The position numbers and the translations under genes are program-made. Source: Candidatus Faecalibacterium gallistercoris (GTDB lineage: Bacteria; Bacillota; Clostridia; Oscillospirales; Ruminococcaceae). Taken from it: a stretch of DNA of 64,000 nt. The DNA lies in NCBI GenBank assembly GCA_019116585.1, contig DXBJ01000008.1, positions 56,220-120,219 on the forward strand, given 5' to 3'. Shown piece by piece: positions 1 through 20,435 of this stretch. The stretch's first letter is position 1. Each line of letters starts with the position of its first letter. A model generated the notes under the pieces. It had not been told where the DNA came from and did not search any database. It saw only the letters and a program-made list of their open reading frames with translations.

Positions 1-15
1 GATCGGGAGGCTGCC

Positions 16-426
16 ATGCTCTATACCATGATGCAGGTGTGCAAAAAAGCGGATATGACCTACCAGACCCTCAAATTCTACTGCAACCAGGGGCTGGTGC
101 CCAACGTCAAGCGGGACCACAACAACCGCCGCGTCTTTGACGAGCGGGATCTGAAATGGATCCAGGACCTGGTCTGCCTGAAAAAATGCGGCATGAGCAT
201 CCAGGAGATGAAAGCCTATCTGGATCTGTGCCTGCAGGGGCCTGCCACCATCCCCCAGCGCAAAGAGATGCTGACCCAAAAGCAGGAGGCCCTGCGCCGC
301 ACCATCCAGGAGCTGGAGGCCAGCGCCGCCTACATCGACTGGAAGCAGACGTTTTACGACGACGTCCTGGCCGGCCGCCGCCCCTACGTGAGCAACCTGA
401 TCCCGCCGGAAAACGCCCCGCTCTGA
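16..426 (+). CDS. MerR-family transcriptional regulator
   Basis: N-terminal MerR HTH pattern (YTMMQVCKKADMTYQTLKFYCNQGLVPNVKRDHNNRRVF) followed by a coiled-coil C-terminus. Confidence 0.85.
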   Translation: MLYTMMQVCKKADMTYQTLKFYCNQGLVPNVKRDHNNRRVFDERDLKWIQDLVCLKKCGMSIQEMKAYLDLCLQGPATIPQRKEMLTQKQEALRRTIQELEASAAYIDWKQTFYDDVLAGRRPYVSNLIPPENAPL

Positions 427-2015
427 CCGCAAAGCCCCCCGTGCCGTCTTGAGACACAGGGGGCTTTGGAAGGATAAAAACAAAAACAGAAAAAGTCCGG
501 ACCTCTCTCCCACAGGAGAAAGATCCGGACTTGTGCATGTGGTGCACCAAGGCAATCCATATCCGAACTTTTTTCCTTTGTCGCGGCTTCGGTAGCCTCG
601 TCGAAAGAAATGGTCTCCGTCCCTTCTTTGTAGTTGAAGGTAATCAGCACTTTATCGTCATAGAGGTAAATAGCATTGATGAAGGTGTCGATCAGCGTCT
701 GCCGCTGTTCCTTTTGGGACAGGTCCAGCTTACGGAAGTGCAACAGCCAGAAGCGGACGAATTCCTCCTTCATCACGGGCTTGGCCAATTTTTCTTCGGC
801 AATCTTTGCTTCCAAGTATTTTTTCTGGCCCTCTAGGGCTTCCAAACGTTCTTTGGTGGAACTGGTCAGGATGCCGGCCTGGATGGCGTTGAGCATATTC
901 TGGATGCCGGTCTCGGTCTCCCGCAGCTGCTTCTCATAGAGGGGCAGGCTGGTGCTCTCTTTGTTTTGCAGCTCCATGACTGCCGCGACGAGTGAGTCGA
1001 TGACTGCGTCGTCCCGAATCAGCTTCATGGTTTCGTTGACCACCAGGTCTTCCAGCCACTGCTTGCGGACGGTTTTCTTAGTGCAGGTCTTTTTCTTCTT
1101 GGCGGCTGCGCACTTGTAGTAGCGGTGCACGTCACCGGTACGGCTGGTGCCGCTCTCACCGAACATCAGCGCGCCGCAGTGACCGCAGAATAGTTTGGTC
1201 GTCAGAAGATAGTCGTCCTCTGCCTTGCGACGGGCAGGGGCCTTTTTGTTTTTTGCCATCTTCTCCTGCACCTCCTGAAACAGTTCGGCTGAAACAAGCG
1301 GCGGGATGGCATCCGTAATCAAAATATCGCGGTATTTCAGCTCCCCGATGTACCGGCGGTTGTTCAGCATATGCTGGACGGTGTTGTAGGTCATGGGACC
1401 GCCGCGTGGGTTCTTAACGTGGTGCTCGTTCAGCCAGTCCCGGATCTCTGTCATGGTCGCACCTTCATTGTACCGCTTGAAGGCTTCCGCAACAAAGGGC
1501 GCCGTAAGGGAATCAGGTTGAAACCGCTGCTCTGCATCAATGACGTAACCGATTGGGACAGCCCCGCCGTTATACTTTCCTTTGAGCGCATTCTCGGTCA
1601 TACCACGCACCACCTTCTCAGACAGGTCGGCGGAGTAATATTCGGCATAGCCCTCCAGCACCGACTCCAGGATGATACCCTCCGGCCCGTCCGAGATGAT
1701 CTCGGTGGCGGACATGAGCTTGACGCCGTTCTTTTTGAGCTGCGTTTTATAACGGGCGCTGTCATAGCGGTTGCGGGCGAAGCGGTCCAGCTTCCAGACC
1801 AAAACGATGTCGAACAGCTTGCGCTCGCTGTCCTTGATCATCTGCTGAAACTGAGGCCGGTTGTCCGTTTTGGCCGAAATCGCCCGGTCAATATAATGCT
1901 TGACCACCGTGATACCGTTCTTCTCGGCATAGGCGGTGCACTCGCGAATCTGGCCTTCGATGGATTCTTCACGCTGGTTGTCCGATGAGTAGCGGGCATA
2001 GATGACGGCAGTCAT
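384..2015 (-). CDS. Large serine recombinase / site-specific integrase (resolvase + recombinase + zinc-ribbon), with a host-derived C-terminal tail
   Basis: MTAVIYARYSSDNQREESIEGQIRECTAYAEKNG resolvase N-terminus; CGHCGALMFGESG zinc-ribbon; the 3' end runs through the 15-bp repeat at 531-545 into flanking DNA. Confidence 0.92.
   Translation of the reverse strand: MTAVIYARYSSDNQREESIEGQIRECTAYAEKNGITVVKHYIDRAISAKTDNRPQFQQMIKDSERKLFDIVLVWKLDRFARNRYDSARYKTQLKKNGVKLMSATEIISDGPEGIILESVLEGYAEYYSADLSEKVVRGMTENALKGKYNGGAVPIGYVIDAEQRFQPDSLTAPFVAEAFKRYNEGATMTEIRDWLNEHHVKNPRGGPMTYNTVQHMLNNRRYIGELKYRDILITDAIPPLVSAELFQEVQEKMAKNKKAPARRKAEDDYLLTTKLFCGHCGALMFGESGTSRTGDVHRYYKCAAAKKKKTCTKKTVRKQWLEDLVVNETMKLIRDDAVIDSLVAAVMELQNKESTSLPLYEKQLRETETGIQNMLNAIQAGILTSSTKERLEALEGQKKYLEAKIAEEKLAKPVMKEEFVRFWLLHFRKLDLSQKEQRQTLIDTFINAIYLYDDKVLITFNYKEGTETISFDEATEAATKEKSSDMDCLGAPHAQVRIFLLWERGPDFFCFCFYPSKAPCVSRRHGGLCGQSGAFSGGIRLLT
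431..467 (+). terminator. Rho-independent terminator of the MerR gene
   Basis: AAAGCCCCC (431-439) / GGGGGCTTT (459-467) hairpin just after the MerR stop. Confidence 0.7.
495..530 (-). terminator. Hairpin terminator that would follow tRNA-Leu in the empty site
   Basis: GTCCGGATCTTTCTCC / GGAGAGAGGTCCGGAC hairpin followed by T-rich sequence on the minus strand, adjacent to the left repeat. Confidence 0.7.
531..545. repeat. Left attachment-site core (direct repeat TTGTGCATGTGGTGC)
   Basis: Identical 15-mer at 20421-20435, where it covers the 3' end of tRNA-Leu. Confidence 0.85.
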
Positions 2016-2339
2016 GGTATAGCCTCCCTTCAGAATTAAATTTGGCAAAATTTTATTTCGTATAATTTATACCATGTTTTGTATTATTTTGCAAGAAGAT
2101 CTTTAAAATGCCGTTCTCTCGGCTTTGCCCCTGTTTTGTTATAGAGGCGGACTATTGCATCCCAATTTTGCATTTATCACAAATTGTCCAGCCAGTCGAT
2201 GTGCAACTTATCCAAAAAGATTCATCAGAAGAAGTTAATTTCCGCATAGATTGCGGCAAAACCATTCGTGGACAATCCTTTGCGGAACTGCTACACTGAT
2301 ATTGTCAAAAATGAAATGCCCAGAAAGGAGTGAAGCAGC

Positions 2340-3116
2340 ATGAAGATCATTTTTCGAGCCGATGACCTTGGATTCAGCGAGGGGGTCAACTGTGGCATTT
2401 ACCGCGCTGTCAAGGATGGCCCCATCACCTGCACCGGTCTGATGCCCAATATGCCCCAGGCGGCCGCCGGATATGAGATGATTCGGGATACCGGCGTGGA
2501 GGTGGGCCAGCATACCAACATCTGCGTGGGCCGGCCCTTGAGCGATCCGGCCAAAATCCCCTCTTTGGTGGGAAGCGACGGAAACTTCTGCACCAGCCGC
2601 GAGATACACGCCCGCAAACAGGACACCATTGTCCTGGAGGAGGTGGAACTGGAGATCCAGGCACAGCTGGACCGGTTTCGCGCGATCACCGGCAAGGACC
2701 CTGCCTATTTTGAGGGGCACGCCGTCATGTCGCCTACCTTCTTCCAAGGGCTGAAAAATGTAGCGGCCCGCAACGGCCTGCTCTACTGTGACCCGGTGGA
2801 CCCCCAGTGGTCGAAAGAGCACGGCATCCAGTGCGCAGCTTTCTACCACCTGGATGAGAAGGGCCTCTATGACCCGTGCAAGTATATCTTCGGGGATGAA
2901 GCCAAACTGACGGATAAGGAGTGCTCCGTGCTGGTGTTCCACCCTGGTTATCTGGACCAGTACCTGCTGGACCATTCCTCCTACACCCTCATCCGGCCCA
3001 TGGAAACGGCTTTCCTGTGCAGCGATGCCCTCAAGGAGTGGATGCAGCAAAACCAGGTGGAGCTCATGACATTTACGGGCCGAGTCAGGGAATTTTGGGG
3101 AAAGGACGGTCAGTGA
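2340..3116 (+). CDS. ChbG/YdjC-family carbohydrate deacetylase
   Basis: MKIIFRADDLGFSEGVNCGIYRA motif and the HPGYLD region typical of the YdjC/ChbG family. Confidence 0.85.
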   Translation: MKIIFRADDLGFSEGVNCGIYRAVKDGPITCTGLMPNMPQAAAGYEMIRDTGVEVGQHTNICVGRPLSDPAKIPSLVGSDGNFCTSREIHARKQDTIVLEEVELEIQAQLDRFRAITGKDPAYFEGHAVMSPTFFQGLKNVAARNGLLYCDPVDPQWSKEHGIQCAAFYHLDEKGLYDPCKYIFGDEAKLTDKECSVLVFHPGYLDQYLLDHSSYTLIRPMETAFLCSDALKEWMQQNQVELMTFTGRVREFWGKDGQ

Positions 3117-3122
3117 TACGCT

Positions 3123-6454
<3,332 letters not shown>

Positions 6455-6469
6455 AAGGAGGAACCACCT

Positions 6470-6823
6470 ATGGCTGAAATGACCGAACAGGAAGAAATGC
6501 AGGTGTTTGAGCTGATCACCGCCGCCGGCGGTGCCAAGAGCACCTTTATGGAGGCCCTCTACAAAGCAAAAGAGGGCAAGTACGACGAAGCTGAAAAGCT
6601 GTTCAAGGAGGCGGACGGGTATTTCATCCAGGGGCACCATGCCCACGCCGCCATGATCGAGGCCGAGGGCCAGGGCGTTGAGACCACCGTCCGGCTGGTG
6701 CTGGCCCACGCCGAGGATCAGCTGATGAGCGCCGAGCTCACCAAAACAATGGTGGAGGAGATGATCGCACTCTACAAGCGGATCGACGCGCTGGAAGAGG
6801 CGCTGGAGCAAAAAAAGCAGTAA
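6470..6823 (+). CDS. PTS lactose/cellobiose-type EIIA
   Basis: HAHAAMIEAEGQ active-site region, alpha-helical EIIA-Lac length and order. Confidence 0.85.
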   Translation: MAEMTEQEEMQVFELITAAGGAKSTFMEALYKAKEGKYDEAEKLFKEADGYFIQGHHAHAAMIEAEGQGVETTVRLVLAHAEDQLMSAELTKTMVEEMIALYKRIDALEEALEQKKQ

Positions 6824-6875
6824 AGAGGAAAATCGCCAGCCATTCCTGTCTGGTAAAAATAAGGAGGAATTTTGT

Positions 6876-7184
6876 ATGAAAAAGATTGTTTTGATGTGCA
6901 GCAATGGGATGTCCACCAGCTTGATGGTGGCTAAGATGCGGGAGGCCGCCGCCAAGGCAGGCTATGAATGCACCATCAACGCCTATTCTCTGGCAGCCGC
7001 CAAGGAAGTGGGCACCGATGCTGACTGCATCCTGATTGGGCCCCAGGTTAAGCACAAGCTGCCCCAGGTGCAGAAGGATTGTCCCGACGTGCCAGTAGCC
7101 GCCATTGAGATGAAGGACTATGGAATGATGAACGGTGCCGCCGTTCTAAAAGCTGCCCGCAAGTTGATGGGCGAGGAGGTGTAA
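6876..7184 (+). CDS. PTS cellobiose-type EIIB
   Basis: MKKIVLMCSNGMSTSLMVAKM phosphocysteine loop. Confidence 0.9.
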   Translation: MKKIVLMCSNGMSTSLMVAKMREAAAKAGYECTINAYSLAAAKEVGTDADCILIGPQVKHKLPQVQKDCPDVPVAAIEMKDYGMMNGAAVLKAARKLMGEEV

Positions 7185-7187
7185 GCC

Positions 7188-8459
7188 ATGGCAGAGAAAA
7201 AGAGCATGACCGACCGGATGGCGGCATTCAGCGACGTCGTCAACGGGAATATCTACCTGCAAAGCATTTCACAGGGCATCATGACGTTTCTGCCGGTAAT
7301 CATCATCGGTTCCTTCGCCAGTCTGTTTTCAGGCCTGCCGGTGGATTTTTGGCAGAACTTTATCCAATCTACCGGTATCAGCACCCTGCTGACTGCGTTG
7401 GTGAGAGCTACCACCAATATGCTGGGCCTCTACTTTACCTATGGCGTCGCCAGCGTCTTTGCCGACAAAAAGGAAGTCCACAGCAAGATCGCACCCATCC
7501 TTGCTCTGATTGTCTATGTGACGCTGCTGCCCACCGCTGTCGACGCCAACGGCACAGCGGTTCTTTCCTTCACTTACATGGGCACCCAGGGCATGATTCT
7601 GGGCATCCTCGTCGCTCTGCTGACCATCTCGGTCTATAAGGCAATTGTGGACGCCAAAATCGTTATCAAAATGCCAGCGGGCACGCCGAAACACGTTTCC
7701 AATACTTTTGTCTCTCTGATTCCCGGTCTGGTCATCGCATTGATGGCTCTGGTGCTGCGTGGTCTGTTTGCGCTGACCCCTTGGGGAAACGCCTTCGACT
7801 GCCTGTACAACATTCTGCAAATGCCCCTCAACGCCATCGTGGGCGAGAACCTCTTTACTTTGACTATCATCAACCTGTTGACCCAGGTGCTGTGGTTCTT
7901 CGGCATCCACCCTGGTTTCCTGTCTAGTATGACCGCCCCCATTATGTTTGGGTTGGATGGGGCTAACCAAGCTGCCTATGCTGCCGGGCAGGCTGTACCC
8001 AACATCATCGGTATGGCCTTTTCCTACAGCACCACCATTGCAACCGTTTATCCCGCTTTTGCCTTAGCCCTGCTACTGTTTGCCAAATCTGGCCAGCTTA
8101 AGACGGTGGGCAAGATTTCAGTAGCTCCTGCTTTCTTCGGCATCTCTGAGCCATTGATCTTCGGCGCTCCTGTTGTGCTCAACCCAACCATTGTGGTTCC
8201 CTGGGTGATTACCCCTGCGCTGAATTTCATCCTGGGCTATGCAGCCTGTGCCATTGGCATTGTGCCACGCTATGCCGGCGTGACGGTATTCAACTTCCCC
8301 ATGATTGCTACCGGCATCCTCAACGGCAGCGCAGCCATCGCAGCGATGGAAGTAGTCCTGTGCGTAATTGACCTACTGATTTTCATGCCCTTTGTTAAGA
8401 TGCAGGACAAGAAGAATCTGGAAGCCGAAAAGCTCGCCACCGAATTTGAGCAGAACTGA
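7188..8459 (+). CDS. PTS cellobiose/diacetylchitobiose-type EIIC
   Basis: Polytopic membrane protein; GISEPLIFGAPVVLNP motif. Confidence 0.9.
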   Translation: MAEKKSMTDRMAAFSDVVNGNIYLQSISQGIMTFLPVIIIGSFASLFSGLPVDFWQNFIQSTGISTLLTALVRATTNMLGLYFTYGVASVFADKKEVHSKIAPILALIVYVTLLPTAVDANGTAVLSFTYMGTQGMILGILVALLTISVYKAIVDAKIVIKMPAGTPKHVSNTFVSLIPGLVIALMALVLRGLFALTPWGNAFDCLYNILQMPLNAIVGENLFTLTIINLLTQVLWFFGIHPGFLSSMTAPIMFGLDGANQAAYAAGQAVPNIIGMAFSYSTTIATVYPAFALALLLFAKSGQLKTVGKISVAPAFFGISEPLIFGAPVVLNPTIVVPWVITPALNFILGYAACAIGIVPRYAGVTVFNFPMIATGILNGSAAIAAMEVVLCVIDLLIFMPFVKMQDKKNLEAEKLATEFEQN

Positions 8460-8539
8460 ACGTTCCCCCTTTTCCCCGCAGCTATACGGGCGACGCCATG
8501 CGCTGCCTGTATGGCTGCCTTTTAATAAGGAGATGCACT

Positions 8540-9385
8540 ATGTATTATCGTTCCCAGCCAGTTTCCGTCCATGTTCTTTGGATCGAAAGTCCCAGCAAAG
8601 AAAACCTCTACCTCGTCATTGGCCGACAGCGGGCCATCCTGATTGATGCGGGCTTGGGAGTAGGACATCTGCGGGCTTTTGTAGAAAATCTGACCAGCCT
8701 GCCCCTCACTGTCCTGCTGACCCATGGGCATATCGACCACGCCCCCGGCGCAACGGAGTTTGGCAAGGTCTATCTCAATAGCGCCGACCAGGCACTTTAT
8801 CGCAGCCAGTGCAGTCTGGCTGACCGCCAGGGCTACCTGAAGGGCAATCTGAGGAATCGCTATGAGGAACTGACCGCTGGCAGCTTTGTGGAGGCTGACC
8901 CAAACAAGTACTTTGCCGAGCTGACCGACGGCATGATTTTTGATTTGGGCGAGGTGCATGTGCAGGCGGTGGCTTTCCCCGGGCACACCGCGGGCAGCAC
9001 TGCTTTCCTTGTGGAGGAGGACAGGCTCCTGATTACGGGAGACTGCTGCAACAATTTTACTTTCCTCTTTGGACCGGAGGCCGCCCCAGTAGAGGCGTAC
9101 AGGGAAACGGTCGTCCAAGTGCGGGACCGTCTGACAGGCCGGTACGATCGGATCTTTGTCTCCCATCATGGGCCCGAGCTGCCCGTTACCCTCCTAGATG
9201 AGATGATTGAGCTGTGTGATCAGGTATTGGCAGGCGATACCGATGACGTGCCATTCTCTTTTATGGGAATGAAAGCAACTATCGCTAAAAAGATGGATAC
9301 TACTTTCCGCCGCTCCGATGGCAAGGCCGCCAACCTGGTGTACAGCAAATCCAAAATCCACAAAGCCCTTGCCTGCACATTGTGA
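8540..9385 (+). CDS. MBL-fold metallo-hydrolase
   Basis: LTHGHIDHAPGA, FPGHTAGS, GDCC and SHHGPE metal ligands; start taken at the MYYRSQPVSV methionine. Confidence 0.85.
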   Translation: MYYRSQPVSVHVLWIESPSKENLYLVIGRQRAILIDAGLGVGHLRAFVENLTSLPLTVLLTHGHIDHAPGATEFGKVYLNSADQALYRSQCSLADRQGYLKGNLRNRYEELTAGSFVEADPNKYFAELTDGMIFDLGEVHVQAVAFPGHTAGSTAFLVEEDRLLITGDCCNNFTFLFGPEAAPVEAYRETVVQVRDRLTGRYDRIFVSHHGPELPVTLLDEMIELCDQVLAGDTDDVPFSFMGMKATIAKKMDTTFRRSDGKAANLVYSKSKIHKALACTL

Positions 9386-9408
9386 TCAAAAAAGGAGAGC
9401 TTGTTTTT

Positions 9409-10602
9409 ATGCACATCGCGTTTGTATCTTTGGGCGCTTTCGGCCACATCAACCCCACCCTGGCGCTCGTCACCGAACTGGTCAAACAGGGCGTCCGGGT
9501 AACCTACTTCACCACCGAGGCTTTCCGCGGCATCATCGAGCCCACCGGGGCAAAATTCGTCCCCGTCCCTTCCTGGATGGCCGAGAACGACAAACACAAC
9601 AAGGGCGGCGAGAAGAAAGAGGATGACGGCGGGGTGGCCGCCGCAGTGCCCTTCCTGTTTTTGAACGAGGCCGGGGCCCACATTGACACGGTGCTGGACA
9701 CCCTGAAAGCCGACAGGCCCAACGCCATCGTCCACGACTTTGCGGGCATCGCCGGCACCATCGCCGCCGACAACCTCAAGGTGCCCAACGTCATGCTGTA
9801 CACCAGCTACCCCTCCAACGACAGCTACTCGGTGGCCGCCGGCTTTGAGACCTGCCCCGCGGACCATCCCCTGCGCCAGGCCGCGGCCCAGCTAGCCCAA
9901 AGCTACGCCGAAAAGTACGGCTGTCGGCTACTGACGGTGAAGGAGATCTTCGACGGTCACGGGGACTTCAACCTGGTCATGATGCAGAAAAAGCTGGTGC
10001 CCAATTATGAGAGCTTTGACGACAGCTTTGTGTTCACCGGGGTGCAAATCGGCAAGCGGACCGCCTTCGGCAGCTGGAAGGCCCCCAACAACGGCAAGCC
10101 GCTCCTCTACTCCTCCCTGGGCACCGCCTTCAACAACTGGCCTGAGTATTACCCCATCCTGTTCGACGCGGTGCGGGACCTGGACATCAACGTCTTTGCG
10201 GCCCTGGGCTCCATCGACCCGGCCGGCCTGAAGGACATCCCCGCCAACGTGGAGGTGGGCCAGATGGTGCCCCAGTTGGACATCCTCTCCCAGGCATCGG
10301 TGTTTATCACCCACGCCGGCATGGGAGGCACCGGTGAGGCCATCTACTACGGCGTGCCCATGCTTGCCATCCCCCAGATGGAGGAGCAGGCCATCACCGC
10401 CCGGCAAATCGAAAAGCTGGGGCTGGGCTGCGCCTTCCTGGACAAAAACGCCATCACCAGCGAGAACCTGAAAGCCGCTATTGTCAAGCTGCTGACCGAG
10501 CCTTCCTATAAGGCCACCGCCCGCGCCTACAGCGAAGATATGCGCAGCCTGGGAGGGGCAAAAGCGTCGGCGGAAGCCCTGCTGGCCTATTTGAAACAGT
10601 AA
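9409..10602 (+). CDS. MGT-family (macrolide/UGT-like) glycosyltransferase
   Basis: MHIAFVSLGAFGHINPTLALVTELVKQG N-terminus and FITHAGMGGTGEAIYYGVPMLAIPQMEEQ donor-site motif. Confidence 0.85.
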   Translation: MHIAFVSLGAFGHINPTLALVTELVKQGVRVTYFTTEAFRGIIEPTGAKFVPVPSWMAENDKHNKGGEKKEDDGGVAAAVPFLFLNEAGAHIDTVLDTLKADRPNAIVHDFAGIAGTIAADNLKVPNVMLYTSYPSNDSYSVAAGFETCPADHPLRQAAAQLAQSYAEKYGCRLLTVKEIFDGHGDFNLVMMQKKLVPNYESFDDSFVFTGVQIGKRTAFGSWKAPNNGKPLLYSSLGTAFNNWPEYYPILFDAVRDLDINVFAALGSIDPAGLKDIPANVEVGQMVPQLDILSQASVFITHAGMGGTGEAIYYGVPMLAIPQMEEQAITARQIEKLGLGCAFLDKNAITSENLKAAIVKLLTEPSYKATARAYSEDMRSLGGAKASAEALLAYLKQ

Positions 10603-10616
10603 AGGGAGACGATATC

Positions 10617-11969
10617 ATGTCTAAATTTCCGAAAGACTTTTTGTGGAGCGCCTCCACCGCAGCCACCCAGATCGAGGGTGGCTGGAATGCGGATGGCAAG
10701 GGCGAATCCATCTGGGACACTCTGGTCCACGACGGCACCGGCCGCATTGCCCACAGCGAGAACGCCGATACCTCCATCGATTTTTACCACCGCTGGCGGG
10801 AGGACGTGGCCCTGATGAAACAGATGGGCCTGAAAGCCTACCGCTTTTCCATCAGCTGGCCCCGCATCCTGCCCGAGGGCGTGGGCAAGGTCAACGAAGC
10901 CGGCGTCAAATTTTACCAGGCCCTCTGCGATGAGCTTCTGCAAAACGGCATCCAGCCCCTGGTGACCCTCTACCACTGGGACCTGCCCACCGCCCTTTAC
11001 CGCAAGGGCGGATGGAAGAACCCTGAAATCGTGGAGTGGTTCGCGGCCTATGTGGATGTAATCTCCAGGGCCCTCGGTGGCCGGGTGAACTACTGGATGA
11101 CCTTCAACGAGCCCCAGATGTTCTGCGGGCTGGGAATGGTAGTGGGTGCCCACGCACCGTTTGAACAGAACGACGATGCCGCCATGATGGCGGTGACCAA
11201 AAACATCCTGCTGGCCCATGGCCGGGCGGTGCAGGTCCTGCGGAAAAACTGCCCCGGCGCCAAGGTCGGGATGGCCCCCACCGGCGACTGCTGCCTGCCC
11301 AAAGATGACAGCCCCGAGGAAGTGGAAAGGGCCCGTCAGAAGTCCCTCAGCGACTACCCCGGATACATCATGTCCAATACCTGGTGGGCCGACCCGGTGT
11401 TCCTGGGGCGGTATCCCGCATGGGCCAGAGAAAAATTCGGCGATATGCTGTACCCTATGACCGACGCGGAATGGGCCTTGGTGAGCCAGCCCCTGGACTT
11501 CTACGCCTACAACTGCTACCAGGGCACAGTGGACCTGGTGCCCGACCCGTCGAAATATGACGCCTACGCCTACCAGGGCAGCCCCCAGACCGCTGCCGCC
11601 TGGAACATCACCCCCAAGGTGCTCTACTACGCCAGCAAGTTCTGGTTCAAGCGGTACCACCTGCCCATCCTCATCACCGAAAATGGCTATTCAGGGCTGG
11701 ACTTCGTCATGCTGGATGGCAAGGTCCACGATCCCCAGCGCATCGACTTTCTGCACCGGTATCTTTTGGAGGTGGCCCATGCCATTGATGATGGCATCCC
11801 AGTGATCGGCTACTCGATGTGGAGCTTGTTCGACAACTTCGAGTGGGCGGCGGGCTACAGCTGCCGCTACGGTCTGATTTATGTGGACTATCCCACCCTG
11901 CAGCGCACCGTCAAGGATTCCGGCTGGTGGTACCGGGACGTCATCGCGTCCAATGGGGAAAATTTATGA
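10617..11969 (+). CDS. Beta-glucosidase, glycoside hydrolase family 1
   Basis: FLWSASTAATQIEGGWN, YWMTFNEPQMFCG and PILITENGYSG motifs. Confidence 0.92.
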   Translation: MSKFPKDFLWSASTAATQIEGGWNADGKGESIWDTLVHDGTGRIAHSENADTSIDFYHRWREDVALMKQMGLKAYRFSISWPRILPEGVGKVNEAGVKFYQALCDELLQNGIQPLVTLYHWDLPTALYRKGGWKNPEIVEWFAAYVDVISRALGGRVNYWMTFNEPQMFCGLGMVVGAHAPFEQNDDAAMMAVTKNILLAHGRAVQVLRKNCPGAKVGMAPTGDCCLPKDDSPEEVERARQKSLSDYPGYIMSNTWWADPVFLGRYPAWAREKFGDMLYPMTDAEWALVSQPLDFYAYNCYQGTVDLVPDPSKYDAYAYQGSPQTAAAWNITPKVLYYASKFWFKRYHLPILITENGYSGLDFVMLDGKVHDPQRIDFLHRYLLEVAHAIDDGIPVIGYSMWSLFDNFEWAAGYSCRYGLIYVDYPTLQRTVKDSGWWYRDVIASNGENL

Positions 11970-12432
11970 AGCATAGGCCCGTTAAAACACATCATATTTT
12001 TGTGCTCTGTTTACAAAACCACCCTTGACTTTTTGATGCTTCATCTAATTTCTTCCGCTTTTACTTGACAGCATCCTACTCTTATGCTACCATCTACTAC
12101 AAGCCAACTCGCTTTAGAAGAATAAAGCGTCATAACTTTCTCTGCCGCCCCGCAACCACACCGAACCATTTTGCCGCCATTCACCTACGACAAAATCCTT
12201 TGGTCCCTTGCGGGGCGGCTTTCTTTATATTCCGAGAGAATTTGCAGCCGGACCACCGGCCTGCAATTCTTCATACCCGCACCTTGAAAACAGCATCAGC
12301 CGTCTGGATCTGGATACCGCGCCACGACCCCGCACAAAATGCGAGCGAGCCGGACAACGCCGCTGCAACACAGGGGCAGGAACGCAGATTCGGTGCAAGC
12401 GGCGACCCCCGTAATAGGAGACACTTCTATTT

Positions 12433-12789
12433 GCGTGCCTCTGGCACGCTTTAGGGGGAACCCATTTCTGCCCGCATACGCGGGACAGAAATTCCTTCCC
12501 CCTAATATCCCCTTGGGGACAAAATTCAGCCCCAGAACCGCGCACTCGCTACGCTCGTACACTCTCCGGGTCTGAATTTCCCTGTCTGTGTCTCGTTCGT
12601 CTGCACATGTCAGTCGAACGAGACTTCTTCTGAAGCACTCCCAGCTTTGGAAACCGAAATCCAATTTGAAATCTGTATTTTTATTTTGGACGGAAAAGCG
12701 ATAAGCAAGTATCGACCTGTGGCCACAATTTCAAAATTGAAGTCGTGTCTCACATTCCGGTCGTACTTGTTGGGGAGTGCTTTCCCCAA
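12433..12789. other. Structured non-coding region with several perfect inverted repeats (candidate oriT or structured RNA)
   Basis: Stems at 12433-12439/12443-12449, 12452-12460/12496-12504 (with nested 12471-12475/12480-12484), 12590-12599/12615-12624 and 12770-12776/12783-12789; no convincing CDS between 11970 and 13150. Confidence 0.45.
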
Positions 12790-13173
12790 ACCCTGCTTTT
12801 GCTACGCGCTGTTTGGATGAGTATCATTCTAGGACGTGGTCAAACCCTACACATGAATGTTATCTTACACAAAGAATCAGAGTCTATTAAGCATTTCGGA
12901 GCAGTCAACTAGAACTTGCATGTCCCATTTCCGAGTAAAATCCAGGAAATCTTCTCACTGCTTTGTGCAATAGTTTCATGCGCAAACGCTGGGAATGTGG
13001 TGTTTACAAGTTGTGTCCAGCAGCCCAGTATGGTATAATTATATTGTATCCAGCAGCGCAAACAGAAAGCCAAAGGGCGCTCTCGCAATGTCTTAAGACA
13101 GGAGTGGTGAAAAAAGCATACCGCAAGTAAATGATGAGCCTATTCCACCCATAGTTTGAGAAAGGAATTCATC

Positions 13174-14385
13174 ATGACAAAATTGAATCACACCAAGGCA
13201 AAGTGGGACATCGCCCGGTTTTTCTGTTATGCACTGCTGACGTCCTGCCTGTTTTCACGCGGTGTTTTCATGCTGTATCTGACCCACAAGGGGCTGACTG
13301 TTGCCCAGGTAGGCCTCTACCAAATGCTGGTACAGTTCTCCATGTTCCTGCTGGAAATCCCCACCGGTTCTGTCGGCGACAGAGTGGGAAAAGTTCGTTC
13401 CCTTCAAATCGGGACGCTGTTGCTGCTGCTCCATTGCGTTCTCATGATGGCGCTGCAGCAGCCTGCGGCGCTGGTCGCCCTGGGCTTTCTGGAGGGTATG
13501 GGCTATACATTCAGCAGCGGCAGCGACGATGCGCTGTTCTATGAGCTTCTTAAAAAGCACCATCGGGAGCAAGATTATCTGCAGCTGAACGCCAAGCTCA
13601 AGTCAGCCCAGTCCATTCTGACTGGCGCCACCATTTCCGCCGGCGCGTTCATCGTCTCCTGGTCCTGGGAGGCTGTATACGGTATCACCGCCCTCTGTCT
13701 GGGCAGCGCTCTTTTGGTGCTGACGCCACTCAGGGAACCTGCCATTTCAAAAACACTGCCAGCTGTCGGCGGCAAGGGAACTTTCTCCCGTCTCCGACAG
13801 CGGATTTTGTACCCCAATCTCACGGCATTTCTGCTCTGCGTCATTGGATTCAGCTTTATGGACGGTATTTCCGGCAGCTATTACAACTATAACCAAATCA
13901 TTTTCCAGCAAGCGCAGATACCGGTCGCCCTCATTGGCATCTTCTTTTCCGCCAATTATTTTGCTGCATCAGCGGCCTATCTGTTCGCGACCTTGCTGTC
14001 CAGATGGCTGTCCAAACGGATTATCCTTTCCTGTATGATCGCTTTGCAGGGCGCGCTGTTTGTCTCGCTGGCGTTCACCCGGCAGCCCGTTTTATTTGTG
14101 GCGTTCGCCTTCATCTGCTGCCTGACACCGGAAGTCATCTATATCCTGGCGGACAGTATCATCCAAACATATATTGCGTCAGAATATCGGGCTACCATCC
14201 TCTCCGTGGTGTCCATGCTGCGGTCACTGATGTCTGCCGTGAGCTATTCTGTTTTGGGTGGCATTCTGGACCGGACAGGCACTACAGGTTTTATGCTTTT
14301 TCTGGCTCTAGTCTGCTTTGCCGCGCTGGGATGTTTCCGGCTCATCCCGACCTACCGCCAAAAATCACAGGACAAATCCGCATAA
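13174..14385 (+). CDS. MFS transporter
   Basis: 12-TM-like hydrophobic pattern, LEIPTGSVGDRVGKVRSL MFS loop motif. Confidence 0.85.
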   Translation: MTKLNHTKAKWDIARFFCYALLTSCLFSRGVFMLYLTHKGLTVAQVGLYQMLVQFSMFLLEIPTGSVGDRVGKVRSLQIGTLLLLLHCVLMMALQQPAALVALGFLEGMGYTFSSGSDDALFYELLKKHHREQDYLQLNAKLKSAQSILTGATISAGAFIVSWSWEAVYGITALCLGSALLVLTPLREPAISKTLPAVGGKGTFSRLRQRILYPNLTAFLLCVIGFSFMDGISGSYYNYNQIIFQQAQIPVALIGIFFSANYFAASAAYLFATLLSRWLSKRIILSCMIALQGALFVSLAFTRQPVLFVAFAFICCLTPEVIYILADSIIQTYIASEYRATILSVVSMLRSLMSAVSYSVLGGILDRTGTTGFMLFLALVCFAALGCFRLIPTYRQKSQDKSA

Positions 14386-14556
14386 CCGTTTGATGGTATA
14401 ATCAAACACAGAAACTCCCGCCAGCAAGGACACGCGCCTTTGTTGGCGGGAAGTTTATTGCGCCGTCTTTCTGTCGATATTGTCATACCACCCAACAAAA
14501 TCTGGAGGCCCTGCACCGCGCAGAGGGCCGCCGCGAAATGACGAGAGGAGGGCTGC

Positions 14557-15897
14557 ATGAGCTGGACAAAGGACGATGTCCGCGATGAAATCTATGAGCA
14601 GGATGAGGAGGAAGACGAAGGTCCATCCTGGGTGGATGATAAAGGCAAAATTTTGGAGGCTGCTTTCTGTGAATACTTTCTTGAAAAGCATCCCCTGATG
14701 TGTCTGAAACAGACCTTATTTGACCTGGACGGCGAAGTGGACGAGGATAAGCTCATCTACGAGATTCACCAGGAAATACGCTATCACGCCCGCAATGATG
14801 TTGCAAAAAAGGTCAAGCGTTTGGTGGAGGCCCTCAAGATCGAGGCATACTGCGAGGAGTGGAAGCCGCAGCTCGACCGCATCCACATCCAGAACGGCAC
14901 CTATTATCTGGACGAACGCGGTTTTGTTTCAGATAAGGAACTCTGCCTGAACCGGCTCCCGGTCGAATACCAGGCGGATGTCGCACCTCCCGTGCAATGG
15001 CTGAAATTTCTGGACGAGCTGCTGATTTCCGAGGATATTTTGACTTTGCAGGAATATATCGGCTACCTTCTCATCCCTTCCACCAAAGCGCAGAAGATGT
15101 TGATTTTGACCGGCAAGGGTGGCGAGGGCAAGTCCCGCATCGGGCTGCTTTTGAAGAAACTGCTTGGGCCTGCCGCCCACATGGAGGCCGTCCTCCGGCT
15201 GGAAACCAACCGTTTCGCCAGCGCCAATCTGGAACACAAACTGGTGATGATCGATGACGACCTGAATATGACTGTTCTCCCCGAAACACGGAACATCAAG
15301 TCCATCGTCACGGCCGAGGACCGCATCTGTGTGGAACGCAAAGGCAAACAGGCCACCCAGGGCTTGCTCTATGCCCGGCTGCTCTGCTTCGGCAACGGCA
15401 ATCTGGTTGCAGCCCACGACACCAGCGATGGTTTCTGGCGGCGGCAGATTTTGATCTCGGTCAAGGACAAGCCGGAAGGCAGGACCGATGACCCTTACCT
15501 GATCGACAAGCTGTCGGAGGAACTGCCCGGCATCCTGCTCTGGGCACTGGAAGGGCTGAAGCGGCTTCTGGCGAATCAGTACCGCTTCACCCTCAGTGAG
15601 CGTGCCAAACAGAACCTTACTGCCGCTATGGAGGACGGCTGTAACCTCGACCAGTTCATGCAGGCCGACTCCTACGTCCGTTTCGACCCGGAAAGGTCGG
15701 CCAGGTCTACCTACCTGTTCCGTGCTTACAACAAGTGGTGCGCCGACAACTTGGAAAAACCGGCGACGCAAAAGAAGTTCAGTCAGTATCTTTTCAAGAA
15801 CGCAGACCGGTATGGTATCCGCTTTTCCAAGCACATCGAGGGCGGCTACCGGGGCTATCGGGGCGTGTATGTCCGCCCTGATTGCGCCCTCGAATAA
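14557..15897 (+). CDS. Phage/plasmid P4-D5-type DNA primase/helicase (SF3)
   Basis: KMLILTGKGGEGKSRI Walker A; KLVMIDDDLNM Walker B; D5-like C-terminus. Confidence 0.85.
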   Translation: MSWTKDDVRDEIYEQDEEEDEGPSWVDDKGKILEAAFCEYFLEKHPLMCLKQTLFDLDGEVDEDKLIYEIHQEIRYHARNDVAKKVKRLVEALKIEAYCEEWKPQLDRIHIQNGTYYLDERGFVSDKELCLNRLPVEYQADVAPPVQWLKFLDELLISEDILTLQEYIGYLLIPSTKAQKMLILTGKGGEGKSRIGLLLKKLLGPAAHMEAVLRLETNRFASANLEHKLVMIDDDLNMTVLPETRNIKSIVTAEDRICVERKGKQATQGLLYARLLCFGNGNLVAAHDTSDGFWRRQILISVKDKPEGRTDDPYLIDKLSEELPGILLWALEGLKRLLANQYRFTLSERAKQNLTAAMEDGCNLDQFMQADSYVRFDPERSARSTYLFRAYNKWCADNLEKPATQKKFSQYLFKNADRYGIRFSKHIEGGYRGYRGVYVRPDCALE

Positions 15898-16208
15898 AAT
15901 TGGGGCGGGAAGTGAAAATTTCCCGCCCCACGCGCCCCCTCGCCCGCAGCAACAAAAATAAATCGCATTACCGTTTTATTTTTTGCTTCGTTTTTTCAAA
16001 ACCCGCCCCGCCTGCCCATGAACCCGCCCGAAGGGGCGCGTTCGGGGCGGGAGGGCGGCTGGGGCGCGTATTTCTGTATTCTGCGCAGAAAAAATTGGGA
16101 GGCCGGCTCTGGAGCAAAGCAGTGTCGGCCTCTCCTATTCCACACTTGGGGCTTTGCAAGCTGAATCATCCCCATGAGCCAGGCGGTGGACCGGAACAGG
16201 AGGTGGAC

Positions 16209-16631
16209 TTGAACAAAAAGAAAAAAGTCGTCAACACTTCGATTTACCCCGATGAGGTCATCGAGCGTCTGGCCTGGTGCTTCTATCCTGCCATTCTGGA
16301 GTGCTTCAACAGCGAAGAAGGCCAGCGGGCCTTCGCCGTCTGGCAGGCGGAACAGGCCAGACCCACAGCCAAAGAAAAACAGGACGTTCCCGCTGGGGAA
16401 CGCCCTGACATCCATACACAGCTTTTTTCAAGTTGGGTGCGTCCTTCTGGGCGCACCTTTTTATATTTAAGGATAGTTCAAACACTTTATAAATGCTCTA
16501 CTTATAAAAGAACTTTTATATTCGCAGAATGGTTAAAAAAGGAAGATAATACATCTTTAATCTCCTTCAACTGTATTTCTAAGTATGGGGTAGCAAAACC
16601 GGTATCTTTTCCCTGGCTTAAATATTTATAA
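16209..16631 (+). CDS. Small mobile-element hypothetical protein, probably C-terminally altered by a junction
   Basis: TTG start (LNKKKKVVNTSIYPDEVIERLAWCFYPAILECFNSEEGQ); the C-terminal half reads through two hairpins into AT-rich DNA, so the true end is uncertain. Confidence 0.4.
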   Translation: MNKKKKVVNTSIYPDEVIERLAWCFYPAILECFNSEEGQRAFAVWQAEQARPTAKEKQDVPAGERPDIHTQLFSSWVRPSGRTFLYLRIVQTLYKCSTYKRTFIFAEWLKKEDNTSLISFNCISKYGVAKPVSFPWLKYL

Positions 16632-16831
16632 TATACTTTCATTAATTCTTTCTTATCATCTTCTGATACCGACTTTTTCTCCAATGATAAAACTTTTATA
16701 CTAAGGTCAATACCGTCAATTTGAATAAATGTTTCTTGATTAACTTTTAAAGCTTCTTCTACTGAGACTGTAGAATATATACGATTTTTAGGTGAAGTCT
16801 TCATTTCAAATAGCCTCTCATGATAAATCAA
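16502..16831 (-). CDS. Small hypothetical protein downstream of the metallophosphoesterase
   Basis: Coupled to the upstream gene. The start could be the in-frame ATG at 16804 (MKTSPKNRIYSTV), which has an AGAGG Shine-Dalgarno sequence. Confidence 0.65.
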   Translation of the reverse strand: MIYHERLFEMKTSPKNRIYSTVSVEEALKVNQETFIQIDGIDLSIKVLSLEKKSVSEDDKKELMKVYYKYLSQGKDTGFATPYLEIQLKEIKDVLSSFFNHSANIKVLL

Positions 16832-16832
16832 A

Positions 16833-18638
16833 TCAATTAATGCCGTCTTTTAGTATTTCTTTAAAGTTATTGGCAAATTTTGTCAAATCAAAGTTCATTT
16901 GTCTAATATAGAGCTGCAAAATAGAAGCTATTACTCTATCTATTCGGTAATAATCCAGACAATATAAAAAGGATTTATATTCATCCGATTTTATTGATAC
17001 GCCAAATGTGATAATTGGATACTTTTGTATATTGCTGTCATCCACGCTATAATTATATAAGTTTTCATCAAAGAGAGGAATTGCAGTTATAAAATCCTTC
17101 CAATCAGTAGAAATTTTATATTCTTCAGGATTGATTGAGTGAATTAGTGGATGCTTTGCCTCAAATGCTGCTTTAATTAACTCAGAATAGGGAAACTCTT
17201 TTACTCCAACATCTGTACCGGCTGCCTGTTCCGGCCACAATGATGCACACATTCGTAAATATTTTATCTCGTTTTTATTTGGCGAAGGACATATACACCG
17301 GAAATGAGATCTGATATTAGGCTGAGAAGTCTCTGGAGGCTTATTAATAAAGTTCACTATAAAACCGTCACATAGAACTTGCATGAACGAGAAAAAAAGT
17401 GAAGTGTCATCTATCTCCCTTTTTTTCTTTTTTCCCTTTCTAAAATGCATTTCTTGAATTGCCATTTGTCTATAAATCCCTAGAGATTCAATAAAATGCT
17501 CTGTATTTTTAATAAAATTGTTGGACAAGAACAAAACTTTGGGAGATCTTCCGTTTACTGTTCCCAGCTCAAAATATGAATGAACTGTCGTCTGTGATAG
17601 CGGTAAAACAATCTTGTTATGCTTTCTATTTTCTTCTCGTGTGTACAAACGATAATCTTCAACAAACGTCCCACCATCGTTCGTGCTTCTGACGTATACA
17701 TCAATCGAGTTTAAATCTAGTCTCAAAACGTAAATAGAATATGCATGAAGTTGTGAATGATCTGATAATGATTCATCTGGCCATCCAATTCCTGTTGATA
17801 ACGTTGTAAGCGACTGCCGATTATTTGACCAATTGACGACATCACGAGTATGTGTATGCCCACATAAAAAGAGCTGCGCATCAATTCCTCGTTGTCCAAT
17901 CAAAAAATTTTGTACAGCATCCTCATCTTTCCCTTCCAAATGATTTAATGGATGATGAGCCATTGCGATTACAACTGGATTATTACCAAGTTCTCTTGCA
18001 TTTAATCGAATTTCTTTATATTGTTTTTCTAATTCTTGAAGTTGAAAATCCCCAAGTTTAAGATTTCTTCGATCTCCATCCCCTCCGTTAGCACTCCAAG
18101 CAGTATTAAATCGGACAAAAATGTACTGTTGACCATTTATGTTCAATTCATTACATCCAAATGTTTCGATTGAATTCTCTGCCTTAAAGAAAATTTGATG
18201 TATTTCTTCTGTTAATTGCTTATATTCTTTAAATGCTTTATTAAAAAAGCCCCCAAATGATTTGAAAAATTGTTTATCGAAAGGGCCTGGCATCTGGCAT
18301 AAAGCTTTTGTTGGATAATCAAGAGATTTATCGTGATTTCCTGGAACAAAATATATTTCTTCTACCTTTTTGCCTATTTTCTCAAGGCTTGTATTTAATT
18401 TTTCAAAGAAATGTTTAACTAATTTTTTTGCTGTATAATCTCCGCGATCAACAATGTCACCGGTTACAATAATAATAATATTTTGTGAATAAAACAATTG
18501 TTGCTCAATATCTTTAATTAATGCATCGTATAATTTTAATGGCTGTGCACCAGTTGTATTGAAATGAAGATCAGAAAGATGGAGTATGGTCAAATCAGTC
18601 GTCAAACTATTTAATGTATCATTTGACAAGTTTTCCAT
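16833..18638 (-). CDS. Calcineurin-like metallophosphoesterase with a large uncharacterised C-terminal domain
   Basis: LHLSDLHFN, VTGDIVDRGD, FVPGNHDKS, AMAHHPLNH and LFLCGHTHTRD metal-binding motifs; about 250 aa C-terminal extension not recognised. Confidence 0.8.
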   Translation of the reverse strand: MENLSNDTLNSLTTDLTILHLSDLHFNTTGAQPLKLYDALIKDIEQQLFYSQNIIIIVTGDIVDRGDYTAKKLVKHFFEKLNTSLEKIGKKVEEIYFVPGNHDKSLDYPTKALCQMPGPFDKQFFKSFGGFFNKAFKEYKQLTEEIHQIFFKAENSIETFGCNELNINGQQYIFVRFNTAWSANGGDGDRRNLKLGDFQLQELEKQYKEIRLNARELGNNPVVIAMAHHPLNHLEGKDEDAVQNFLIGQRGIDAQLFLCGHTHTRDVVNWSNNRQSLTTLSTGIGWPDESLSDHSQLHAYSIYVLRLDLNSIDVYVRSTNDGGTFVEDYRLYTREENRKHNKIVLPLSQTTVHSYFELGTVNGRSPKVLFLSNNFIKNTEHFIESLGIYRQMAIQEMHFRKGKKKKREIDDTSLFFSFMQVLCDGFIVNFINKPPETSQPNIRSHFRCICPSPNKNEIKYLRMCASLWPEQAAGTDVGVKEFPYSELIKAAFEAKHPLIHSINPEEYKISTDWKDFITAIPLFDENLYNYSVDDSNIQKYPIITFGVSIKSDEYKSFLYCLDYYRIDRVIASILQLYIRQMNFDLTKFANNFKEILKDGIN

Positions 18639-18831
18639 TTATCTCAACCTCCTTAAGTGCAACAATGGTTGTATTTTTGTCTTTAATTTAACAAAGGGCT
18701 ATTTATGCCATAAATCAGAATACACAAGTTCTATATATTATATAAAATTTTCCGTGGATATGTCAACAGTTTTCACAAATTTGTTTTTAGTTCTTATATG
18801 TTCTAGCAGGTTGGGGATAGTGTCAAGTATT

Positions 18832-20298
18832 GGACCTGTTGACAAAGTCTCCTCAAATTCTCCTCCCTATGTTATAATAAAACAAAGGAGGGAAGGAGTA
18901 TGATGGGACGGCAGAGTGGTCAATTAAGTATGGTGGTCATGGACCTGTCAGAGCTAATTCCTGACGATCATTTGCTTCGTCGGATCTCTCGGGTCATCTC
19001 GTTTGACTTCATTTATGAACTCCTGGAACCATACTACCCTCCCAACGGTCGTCCGTCGGTCGATCCTGTCAGTATGTTTAAAATGCTGCTGGTTGGATAT
19101 CTATATGGGATCAAATCAGAACGTCGACTTGTACAGGAAGTCCAATTGAACATTGCTTATCGGTGGTTTTGCGGATTTGAATTATCAGATCGTATTCCTG
19201 ATCACTCTACGTTTAGCAAAACACGCCAGCGTAAGTGGAATGAAAGTCAATTGTTCCAATCTGTTTTTCGTGAAATTGTGCGGCGCTGCGTGAAGAGCGG
19301 CTTGGTAGATGGAAAAGAATTGGCAGCAGACGGCACATATCTTCCAGCAAATGTCTCCAGAGACAGCTGGGTTGAAACCGAAGTAGAAGCTGAATTGAGT
19401 ATGCAGAGTTATTTGGATTGCTTGGATGAAGAACTTTCGAAACAACCTGGTTTCAAAAAGCCGCCAGTTAAAACAGTCAAAAAGCGCCGCATAACCAGTA
19501 AAACAGATCCCGACAGTGGATGCATAAACCATGGTAAGAAGAGCGGCATTGGCTATCTGATGGAAACAACGGTAGATTGTAAATGCGGAATTATAACAGG
19601 TGTAGATGTGTATCCAGCCAATGAAAAAGAAAGTTTATTGGTTCTGCGCCATTTGGAGCGACAGATTAAGAATGGCGTTCCAATGAAAAACATTGTACTG
19701 GATCGCGGCTATGATACTGGTGCGGTTCATCGCGGTCTGGAGCTCCTTGGCATTACCGGATATATTCCCGCTATCCAGTTCTCCAATTCCCCTGAAAAGT
19801 ATGGATTTTCTTATTTACCCAAAGAAGATGCGTTTTCTTGTCCAGAAGGAGTCCGACTTGTTTACCAGCGATTAAATTGCAGCCAGACAACTGGAAAATA
19901 CTTACGATGCTACCAAGTACAAGGTGATGCCTGCAGAACCTGTAAACGACAGTCAGATTGTTTCAAGCAAACTGGCATTCGGCGCAGAATCCTTGGGAGT
20001 AGCTGCTATCCGGCTTTCTACAGGGGGCATGAGCGTATCGGAAGCGACACCTATTGGCATATGATGCGCTTGCGCAAAATATGGGCAGAGGGATCGTTCG
20101 CAGTGCTCAAACGAGAGCACTGCCTGTCCAAAGTTAGAAAAAGAGGCATTTCAGCTGTAACCGAGGAATGCCTCTTATCCGTTATGGCCTTGAATCTAAA
20201 AAGGATCGCAAAGGCTATCCTTTTATTCTTATCTAAGACAAAAAATATGGATTGGAGACTTTTTTCTCCAGTCCATATTTTATTTTGTCAACAGATCC
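18832..20298 (+). mobile_element. IS1182-family insertion sequence
   Basis: Imperfect terminal inverted repeats (GGACCTGTTGACAAA at 18832; TTTGTCAACAGATCC ending 20298) around a transposase ORF. Confidence 0.75.
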
Positions 20299-20333
20299 CT
20301 TATTGTACATTATTAGTTGAGTCTTGGCTGTAA
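18900..20333 (+). CDS. IS1182-family transposase
   Basis: DHLLRRISRVISF, PSVDPVSMFKMLLVGYLYGIKSERRLVQEVQLNIAYRWFCGF and DGTYLPAN motifs. Confidence 0.92.
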   Translation: MMGRQSGQLSMVVMDLSELIPDDHLLRRISRVISFDFIYELLEPYYPPNGRPSVDPVSMFKMLLVGYLYGIKSERRLVQEVQLNIAYRWFCGFELSDRIPDHSTFSKTRQRKWNESQLFQSVFREIVRRCVKSGLVDGKELAADGTYLPANVSRDSWVETEVEAELSMQSYLDCLDEELSKQPGFKKPPVKTVKKRRITSKTDPDSGCINHGKKSGIGYLMETTVDCKCGIITGVDVYPANEKESLLVLRHLERQIKNGVPMKNIVLDRGYDTGAVHRGLELLGITGYIPAIQFSNSPEKYGFSYLPKEDAFSCPEGVRLVYQRLNCSQTTGKYLRCYQVQGDACRTCKRQSDCFKQTGIRRRILGSSCYPAFYRGHERIGSDTYWHMMRLRKIWAEGSFAVLKREHCLSKVRKRGISAVTEECLLSVMALNLKRIAKAILLFLSKTKNMDWRLFSPVHILFCQQIPYCTLLVESWL

Positions 20334-20382
20334 TTTTGGGCAGAAAATAGGGACGCATTAGACAGTCTTTAGTAAAAGAAAA

Positions 20383-20420
20383 AATCCGAACCCTTCTCCT
20401 ATTGGAAAAAAGTTCGGATT
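20383..20420 (-). terminator. Island-borne hairpin terminator now placed downstream of tRNA-Leu
   Basis: AATCCGAAC (20383-20391) / GTTCGGATT (20412-20420) plus T-tract on the minus strand. Confidence 0.75.
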
Positions 20421-20435
20421 TTGTGCATGTGGTGC
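20421..20435. repeat. Right attachment-site core (direct repeat)
   Basis: Identical to 531-545; contains the tRNA-Leu 3' GCACCA end. Confidence 0.85.

Follow-up and report, generated by a model that had tools for sequence, protein, structure and literature searches.

What does an AT-rich pair of genes, one of which encodes a phosphoesterase with an additional C-terminal region and the other a protein of about 100 residues, do within a mobile element of a gut bacterium? The pair is found on contig DXBJ01000008.1 of Candidatus Faecalibacterium gallistercoris, in a stretch of 64,000 nucleotides that is called the window here. An earlier note on this DNA had proposed that the two genes are anti-phage or toxin-antitoxin-like cargo.

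The gene pair and its host element

The earlier note had described an AT-rich two-gene metallophosphoesterase (MPE) unit at 16502-18638, lying between a primase remnant and an IS1182 element, and both parts of this description hold. The MPE gene and its partner of about 100 aa are present on the minus strand, the former with a Pfam match to PF00149, and a DUF5906/D5-like primase and an IS1182-type transposase lie on the two flanks. The features of the locus are as follows:

14557-15897, D5-like primase (DUF5906), one flank of the AT-rich block
16378-16458, terminator-like hairpins, downstream of the partner gene at the edge of the AT-rich block
16502-16804, minus strand, partner ORF of 100 aa, directly downstream of the MPE gene in all eight loci listed, with a predicted mixed alpha/beta fold
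16833-18638, minus strand, MPE ORF of 601 aa, with an N-terminal calcineurin-like MPE domain at about residues 14-340
about residues 372-590 of the 601-aa protein, minus strand, helical linker and predicted GAF-like domain (AlphaFold2/Foldseek)
16833-17330, minus strand, the predicted GAF-like domain itself (alignments and Foldseek GAF matches)
18737-18766, minus strand, consensus sigma-70 promoter TTGACA-18-TATAAT with 12 of 12 matches, about 100 nt upstream of the MPE start
18817-20313 (ends approximate), IS1182-type element with its transposase at 18900-20333, adjoining the upstream side of the pair

The GC content of the pair is 0.32, compared with 0.62 in the remaining window, and none of 231 windows of equal length is as AT-rich (the lowest GC among them was 0.48). 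The start of the partner gene is most likely ATG 16804, which has AGAGG in front of it and is favored because of this better ribosome site and its agreement with the length of the homologs; TTG 16831 is a possible start. The two genes are probably co-translated. Because the promoter scan as a whole returned 10 promoter-like sites against 10.9 expected by chance, the promoter call is based on its perfect match and its position alone.

The pair is present once in its genome, as is the IS1182-type element. It is located near the right end of an integrated element of approximately 19.9 kb (window 519-20435) at a tRNA-Leu gene. The ends of this element share a 15-bp core, TTGTGCATGTGGTGC, at 531-545 and 20421-20435, and the second copy lies at the 3' end of the tRNA-Leu. 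A large serine recombinase is encoded at the left end (ORF 384-2048, minus strand). Its ORF reads through the left junction, and its natural C-terminus has therefore probably been changed by integration. Other cargo includes a sugar-PTS with its regulator, a glycosyltransferase, a GH1 enzyme, and an MFS transporter, and the tRNA-Leu island is thus not a defence island.

Related loci and their genomic contexts

At least seven other loci that share the architecture of the window pair were obtained by genome searches and one alignment-based scan of genome contigs; a single-sequence scan of the contigs gave no relative. These loci are:

L010, Butyricicoccus MAG (same contig as L007)
L013, Eubacterium HAN012 (same as L008)
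L011, Eubacterium sp. An11
L012, Lachnoclostridium sp. An118
L002/L104, genome G180
L098/L103, genome G945
L101/L102, genome G1040, a decayed copy

The architecture occurs in 6 of about 1,067 genomes searched individually, that of the window included, a tally that is slightly enriched by the search of one family following a match in it. It is absent from four congeners. No full-length relative was found in phage and viral collections, and plasmids gave matches to the MPE domain only (23-26%). Across the intact copies the catalytic motifs are kept at 28-55% identity, and the pair is AT-rich in every host (GC 0.28-0.37). It is rare, patchy, and horizontally moving in gut clostridia.

The genomic contexts differ from one host to another. 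In L012 (9995-14165), KwaA (E=9e-60) and KwaB (E=3e-119) are found directly downstream of the pair, 300 bp away, and the pair and this Kiwa system may together form a composite defence locus. This is the only one of the eight loci listed in which a recognized defence system adjoins the pair, with none clearly recognized at the others. Co-occurrence near defence genes, which the earlier note had offered as a check, was seen beside the L012 pair and not in the window, where the island carries PTS, GH1, and MFS cargo. The L011 pair (1-4804) is placed between two inverted IS3-type copies (97% over 484 nt) in a composite-transposon-like arrangement, the L013 pair lies 240 bp from a tRNA-Pro gene, and the L010 pair has IS transposases, an XRE regulator, and an IrrE-type peptidase on its flanks. 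In G1040 (L102 9030-11603), the MPE domain is broken; the GAF-like ORF and the partner are still open.

Two neighbors were also observed at these loci. The decayed copy in L102 adjoins an ATPase listed as PDC-S01 by PADLOC, and a 1068-aa Schlafen AlbA_2 protein, a possible second conflict gene, lies beside the pair in G945 (L103 3879-7085).

The phosphoesterase, its C-terminal region, and the partner

The 601-aa protein matches the calcineurin-like phosphoesterase family PF00149 with E=1.3e-18 over residues 17-264, and all five metal/catalytic motifs of the superfamily (DxH, GD, GNHD, H, GHxH) are found in it. The motifs D23xH25, GD61, GN101H102D103, H228H229, and GH261xH263 are invariant in six aligned sequences and present in L098, and the catalytic motifs are invariant across every homolog whose MPE domain is intact. 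The best NCBIfam match of the domain is the model of the anti-phage protein DS-8 (NF053861, E=1.3e-28, residues 20-328).

Further relatives were collected through conserved motif patterns and ranked by profile score, not by tree. Those outside the family that match over about 250 residues reach about 55-113 bits and include MPE-EAD8, MPE-NACHT, MPE-nSTAND, MPE-SIR2, and MPE-SAVED proteins; MPE-EAD8, MPE-nSTAND, MPE-NACHT-FGE, MPE-SIR2, and MPE-SAVED representatives were examined individually. Many of the 46 next relatives by profile score carry NACHT, STAND-type, NB-ARC, SAVED, or TPR domains. Most short single-domain MPEs match over only about 90 residues (16-47 bits), a few scoring better, such as the 346-aa L015, and the five further MPEs encoded in the genome of the window gave no match. 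By profile score, the domain is nearest to immune-type proteins and not to the genome's own MPEs. In DS-8, phage defence is lost upon MPE mutations, and the MPE active sites are essential in both DS-8 and DS-9 (PMC13092281). Among the effectors of one class of predicted conflict systems, calcineurin-type domains are the most frequent (PMC7159879). A 718-aa MPE-SIR2 fusion in Nostoc paludosum (L025 9992-12148) unites two putative immune effector domains.

The C-terminal region, suggested earlier to be possibly sensor-like, does resemble GAF sensor domains in its predicted structure. The AlphaFold2 model (pLDDT 80, pTM 0.82) has long helices followed by a mixed domain with about six strands, and its Foldseek list is led by GAF-type structures, with matches to NLH2 (4g3v), PtsP (3ci6), fRMsr, phytochrome, and NifA (prob 0.60-0.99, E 3.5e-3 to 0.1). 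GAF domains make up most of the best matches (prob 0.84-0.99, E 2.5e-3 to 0.1, TM ~0.5), and probabilities of 0.97-0.99 were obtained for the resemblance to GAF sensor domains. Pfam GAF models matched none of six members, and sequence searches of Pfam and PDB gave chance matches only for this region. The assignment as a GAF-like fold is thus made by predicted fold and not by sequence profile. A match to a housekeeping enzyme, which the earlier note had named as a point against its proposal, was not obtained. The domain was not found outside this MPE architecture at E<=1e-6 in 299 genomes of the family. In the alignments, R443xH445F446R447, Y460, S501xN503, W513, T518, P521, and F545G546 are invariant. 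Since R443, H445, and R447 alternate on the first strand of the domain, they should face the same side, and a pocket lined by this R-x-H-F-R strand may bind an anionic ligand.

An ORF of 100-130 aa directly follows the MPE gene in all eight loci listed, the decayed one included, so that the pairing, whose loss the earlier note had set beforehand as grounds for rejection, is conserved. The gaps between the two genes in the seven loci with an intact MPE are -23, -17, +1, +7, +19, +28, and +249 bp. In leave-one-out HMMs built from seven partners, the left-out partner was the best non-training match among 6,181 ORFs (E 1e-6 to 1e-17), and the best unrelated ORF had an E of 0.1 or worse. When whole subgroups were left out, the partners of L013/L098/L011/L012 and those of L002/L101 still tied to the rest. 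The link of the window and L010 partners to the rest was marginal, with E=0.021 and 0.79 among 6,181 ORFs, values that equal about 3e-6 and 1e-4 for a single pre-specified downstream ORF. In hhalign comparisons of the partner subgroups, g2-g3 was significant (2e-7), and the window/L010 group gave no significant match against the other subgroups. The partner changes more quickly than the MPE protein; between the window pair and its closest relative, the values are 38% for the partner and 63% for the MPE.

The partner had been considered a protein of unknown family, and this is borne out by the searches. Its AlphaFold2 model, although confident (pLDDT 86), has no significant Foldseek match in PDB or BFVD; Pfam, NCBIfam, and PADLOC gave nothing convincing, and sequence searches of PDB and Pfam gave chance matches only. 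No DNA-binding domain was recognized by Pfam or fold searches. Similarities to Nse1, RPA, or UDPGP were taken as chance, being weak (E>0.003) and different in each member. The partner represents a new family.

Function of the pair and comparison with known systems

The combination of an immune-type MPE domain, a sensor-like GAF fold, and a constant small partner of a new family probably indicates an undescribed anti-phage module. The reading that we favor, somewhat above even odds, is that of a compact mobile immune module made up of the two genes, with an MPE effector, a GAF-like gate, and the partner as threshold-setter. Computation provided the catalytic motifs, the GAF-like fold, the gene pairing, the immune-type relatives of the MPE domain, and the mobility. 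From these we infer the activity, ligand, target, role of the partner, and phage defence as the phenotype. The C-terminal GAF-like sensor would keep the MPE effector off until infection. Its pocket would probably bind an anionic small molecule, such as a nucleotide-type signal or an infection-altered metabolite, or else a phage or partner protein, and binding would release the MPE. The released MPE would then hydrolyze phosphodiester bonds in nucleotides or nucleic acid, so that phage replication is stopped or the cell is killed. The fast-evolving partner would probably set the threshold, either by inhibiting the MPE or by serving as an infection-sensing adaptor; both roles agree equally well with the gene order, the overlap, and the rapid evolution of the partner. 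That no nucleotidyltransferase or cyclase was recognized near the pair as a source of the GAF ligand counts against a defence module.

Two other functions can be considered, both unlikely. One is a toxin-antitoxin addiction pair, in which the MPE is the toxin and the partner its direct antitoxin, retained for the stability of the mobile element. Two co-directional, often overlapping genes in mobile contexts are consistent with this, and the G1040 copy, which lost the MPE part and kept the partner and the GAF-like part, is what would be expected of a harmful MPE. This decayed copy slightly favors a harmful MPE; it is, however, a single case. The effector of 600-680 aa with its own sensor-like domain, the toxin-first order, and the partner without a recognized DNA-binding domain argue against an addiction pair, and the immune relatives of the MPE suggest triggered effectors instead.

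The other, improbable to a similar degree, is a regulatory phosphodiesterase under GAF control, which would adjust a nucleotide signal of the cell or a stress response and would have the partner as one of its subunits. The joining of GAF and phosphodiesterase domains is the logic of known cyclic-nucleotide phosphodiesterases, and the pair matches this logic. GAF and calcineurin-type phosphodiesterases are also both listed as parts of nucleotide signaling (PMC7159879). The very patchy distribution, the absence from congeners, the AT-rich composition in all hosts, and an MPE domain that is closer to immune-type proteins than to the genome's own MPEs speak against such a regulator. Least likely is that the pair has no present function in this strain and is cargo, selfish or decaying, that the mobile element carries along by accident. 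The single copy adjoining an IS1182 element, the rarity of the pair, and the existence of one decayed copy are in favor of this; the intact ORFs of the window, the catalytic motifs retained in diverged intact copies, and the intact consensus promoter speak against it.

The defence half of the initial proposal is therefore favored by the immune MPE relatives, the one Kiwa neighbor, the patchiness, and the mobility, and its toxin-antitoxin half gained no specific support. A more detailed form of the immune module can be put forward only tentatively: a new two-gene immune family, in which a GAF-type pocket might read a small molecule tied to infection, with neither a dedicated nucleotidyltransferase nor a STAND NTPase involved, and the rapidly evolving partner with its new fold might act as threshold-setter or phage sensor.

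Among known systems, DS-8 (NF053861 DS8_antiphage, DefensePredictor) shares the homologous N-terminal MPE (99 bits, residues 20-328). DS-8 is a single protein of about 1000 aa with a NACHT NTPase, whereas the present system has a GAF-like domain and a separate partner of about 100 aa. No NTPase was found in the 601-aa protein by Pfam scan. With the NACHT/P-loop NTPase missing and a score far below the family cut-off of 790 bits, identity as DS-8 is ruled out. DS-9 (NF053862) likewise consists of two genes with an MPE, but its second gene encodes a HAD phosphatase and not a protein of the new family, and the 601-aa protein scores 45 bits against a cut-off of 420 bits. The MPE-SAVED effectors of type II CBASS, such as that of L017, also combine an N-terminal MPE with a C-terminal sensor at a similar total size, but have SAVED in place of the GAF-like domain and lack the partner. 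No SAVED domain was detected in the 601-aa protein by Pfam, and no CD-NTase, Cap2, or Cap3 was recognized among the neighboring ORFs read or scanned; with the defining CD-NTase and the SAVED-type sensor missing, identity as CBASS is ruled out. In L017 itself (5579-10470, Bacteroidales MAG), an MPE-SAVED protein is the effector of a type II CBASS-like operon (review: PMC10419184), whose nucleotidyltransferase, E1/E2, and JAB genes were recognized by reading and not by profile scan.

GAF sensors such as NLH2 (4g3v), PtsP (3ci6), and the phytochromes are alike to residues ~372-590 in predicted fold, but the region has no Pfam sequence match to them and carries its own conserved RxHFR, SxN, and WxxFxTxxP. 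Type II toxin-antitoxin pairs are likewise small two-gene operons on mobile DNA; they differ from the present pair, with its large sensor-bearing effector, its toxin-first order, and no recognizable DNA-binding domain of an antitoxin. No description of an MPE combined with a GAF-like domain and a partner of about 100 aa was found in profile libraries or the accessible literature. A 2020 J Bacteriol paper on predicted immune systems reportedly includes a ‘Calcineurin-CE’ system, a term not found in our literature search, which could be related and could lower the novelty.

What is new here is the sensor combination and the partner family; the effector was already known, and MPE domains have been shown only recently, in DS-8 and DS-9, to be essential anti-phage effectors. 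If the favored reading is correct, a small two-gene, GAF-gated version would represent a far simpler system for finding the substrate and the trigger of the MPE, and GAF would join NACHT/STAND and SAVED among the sensors that gate an MPE effector.
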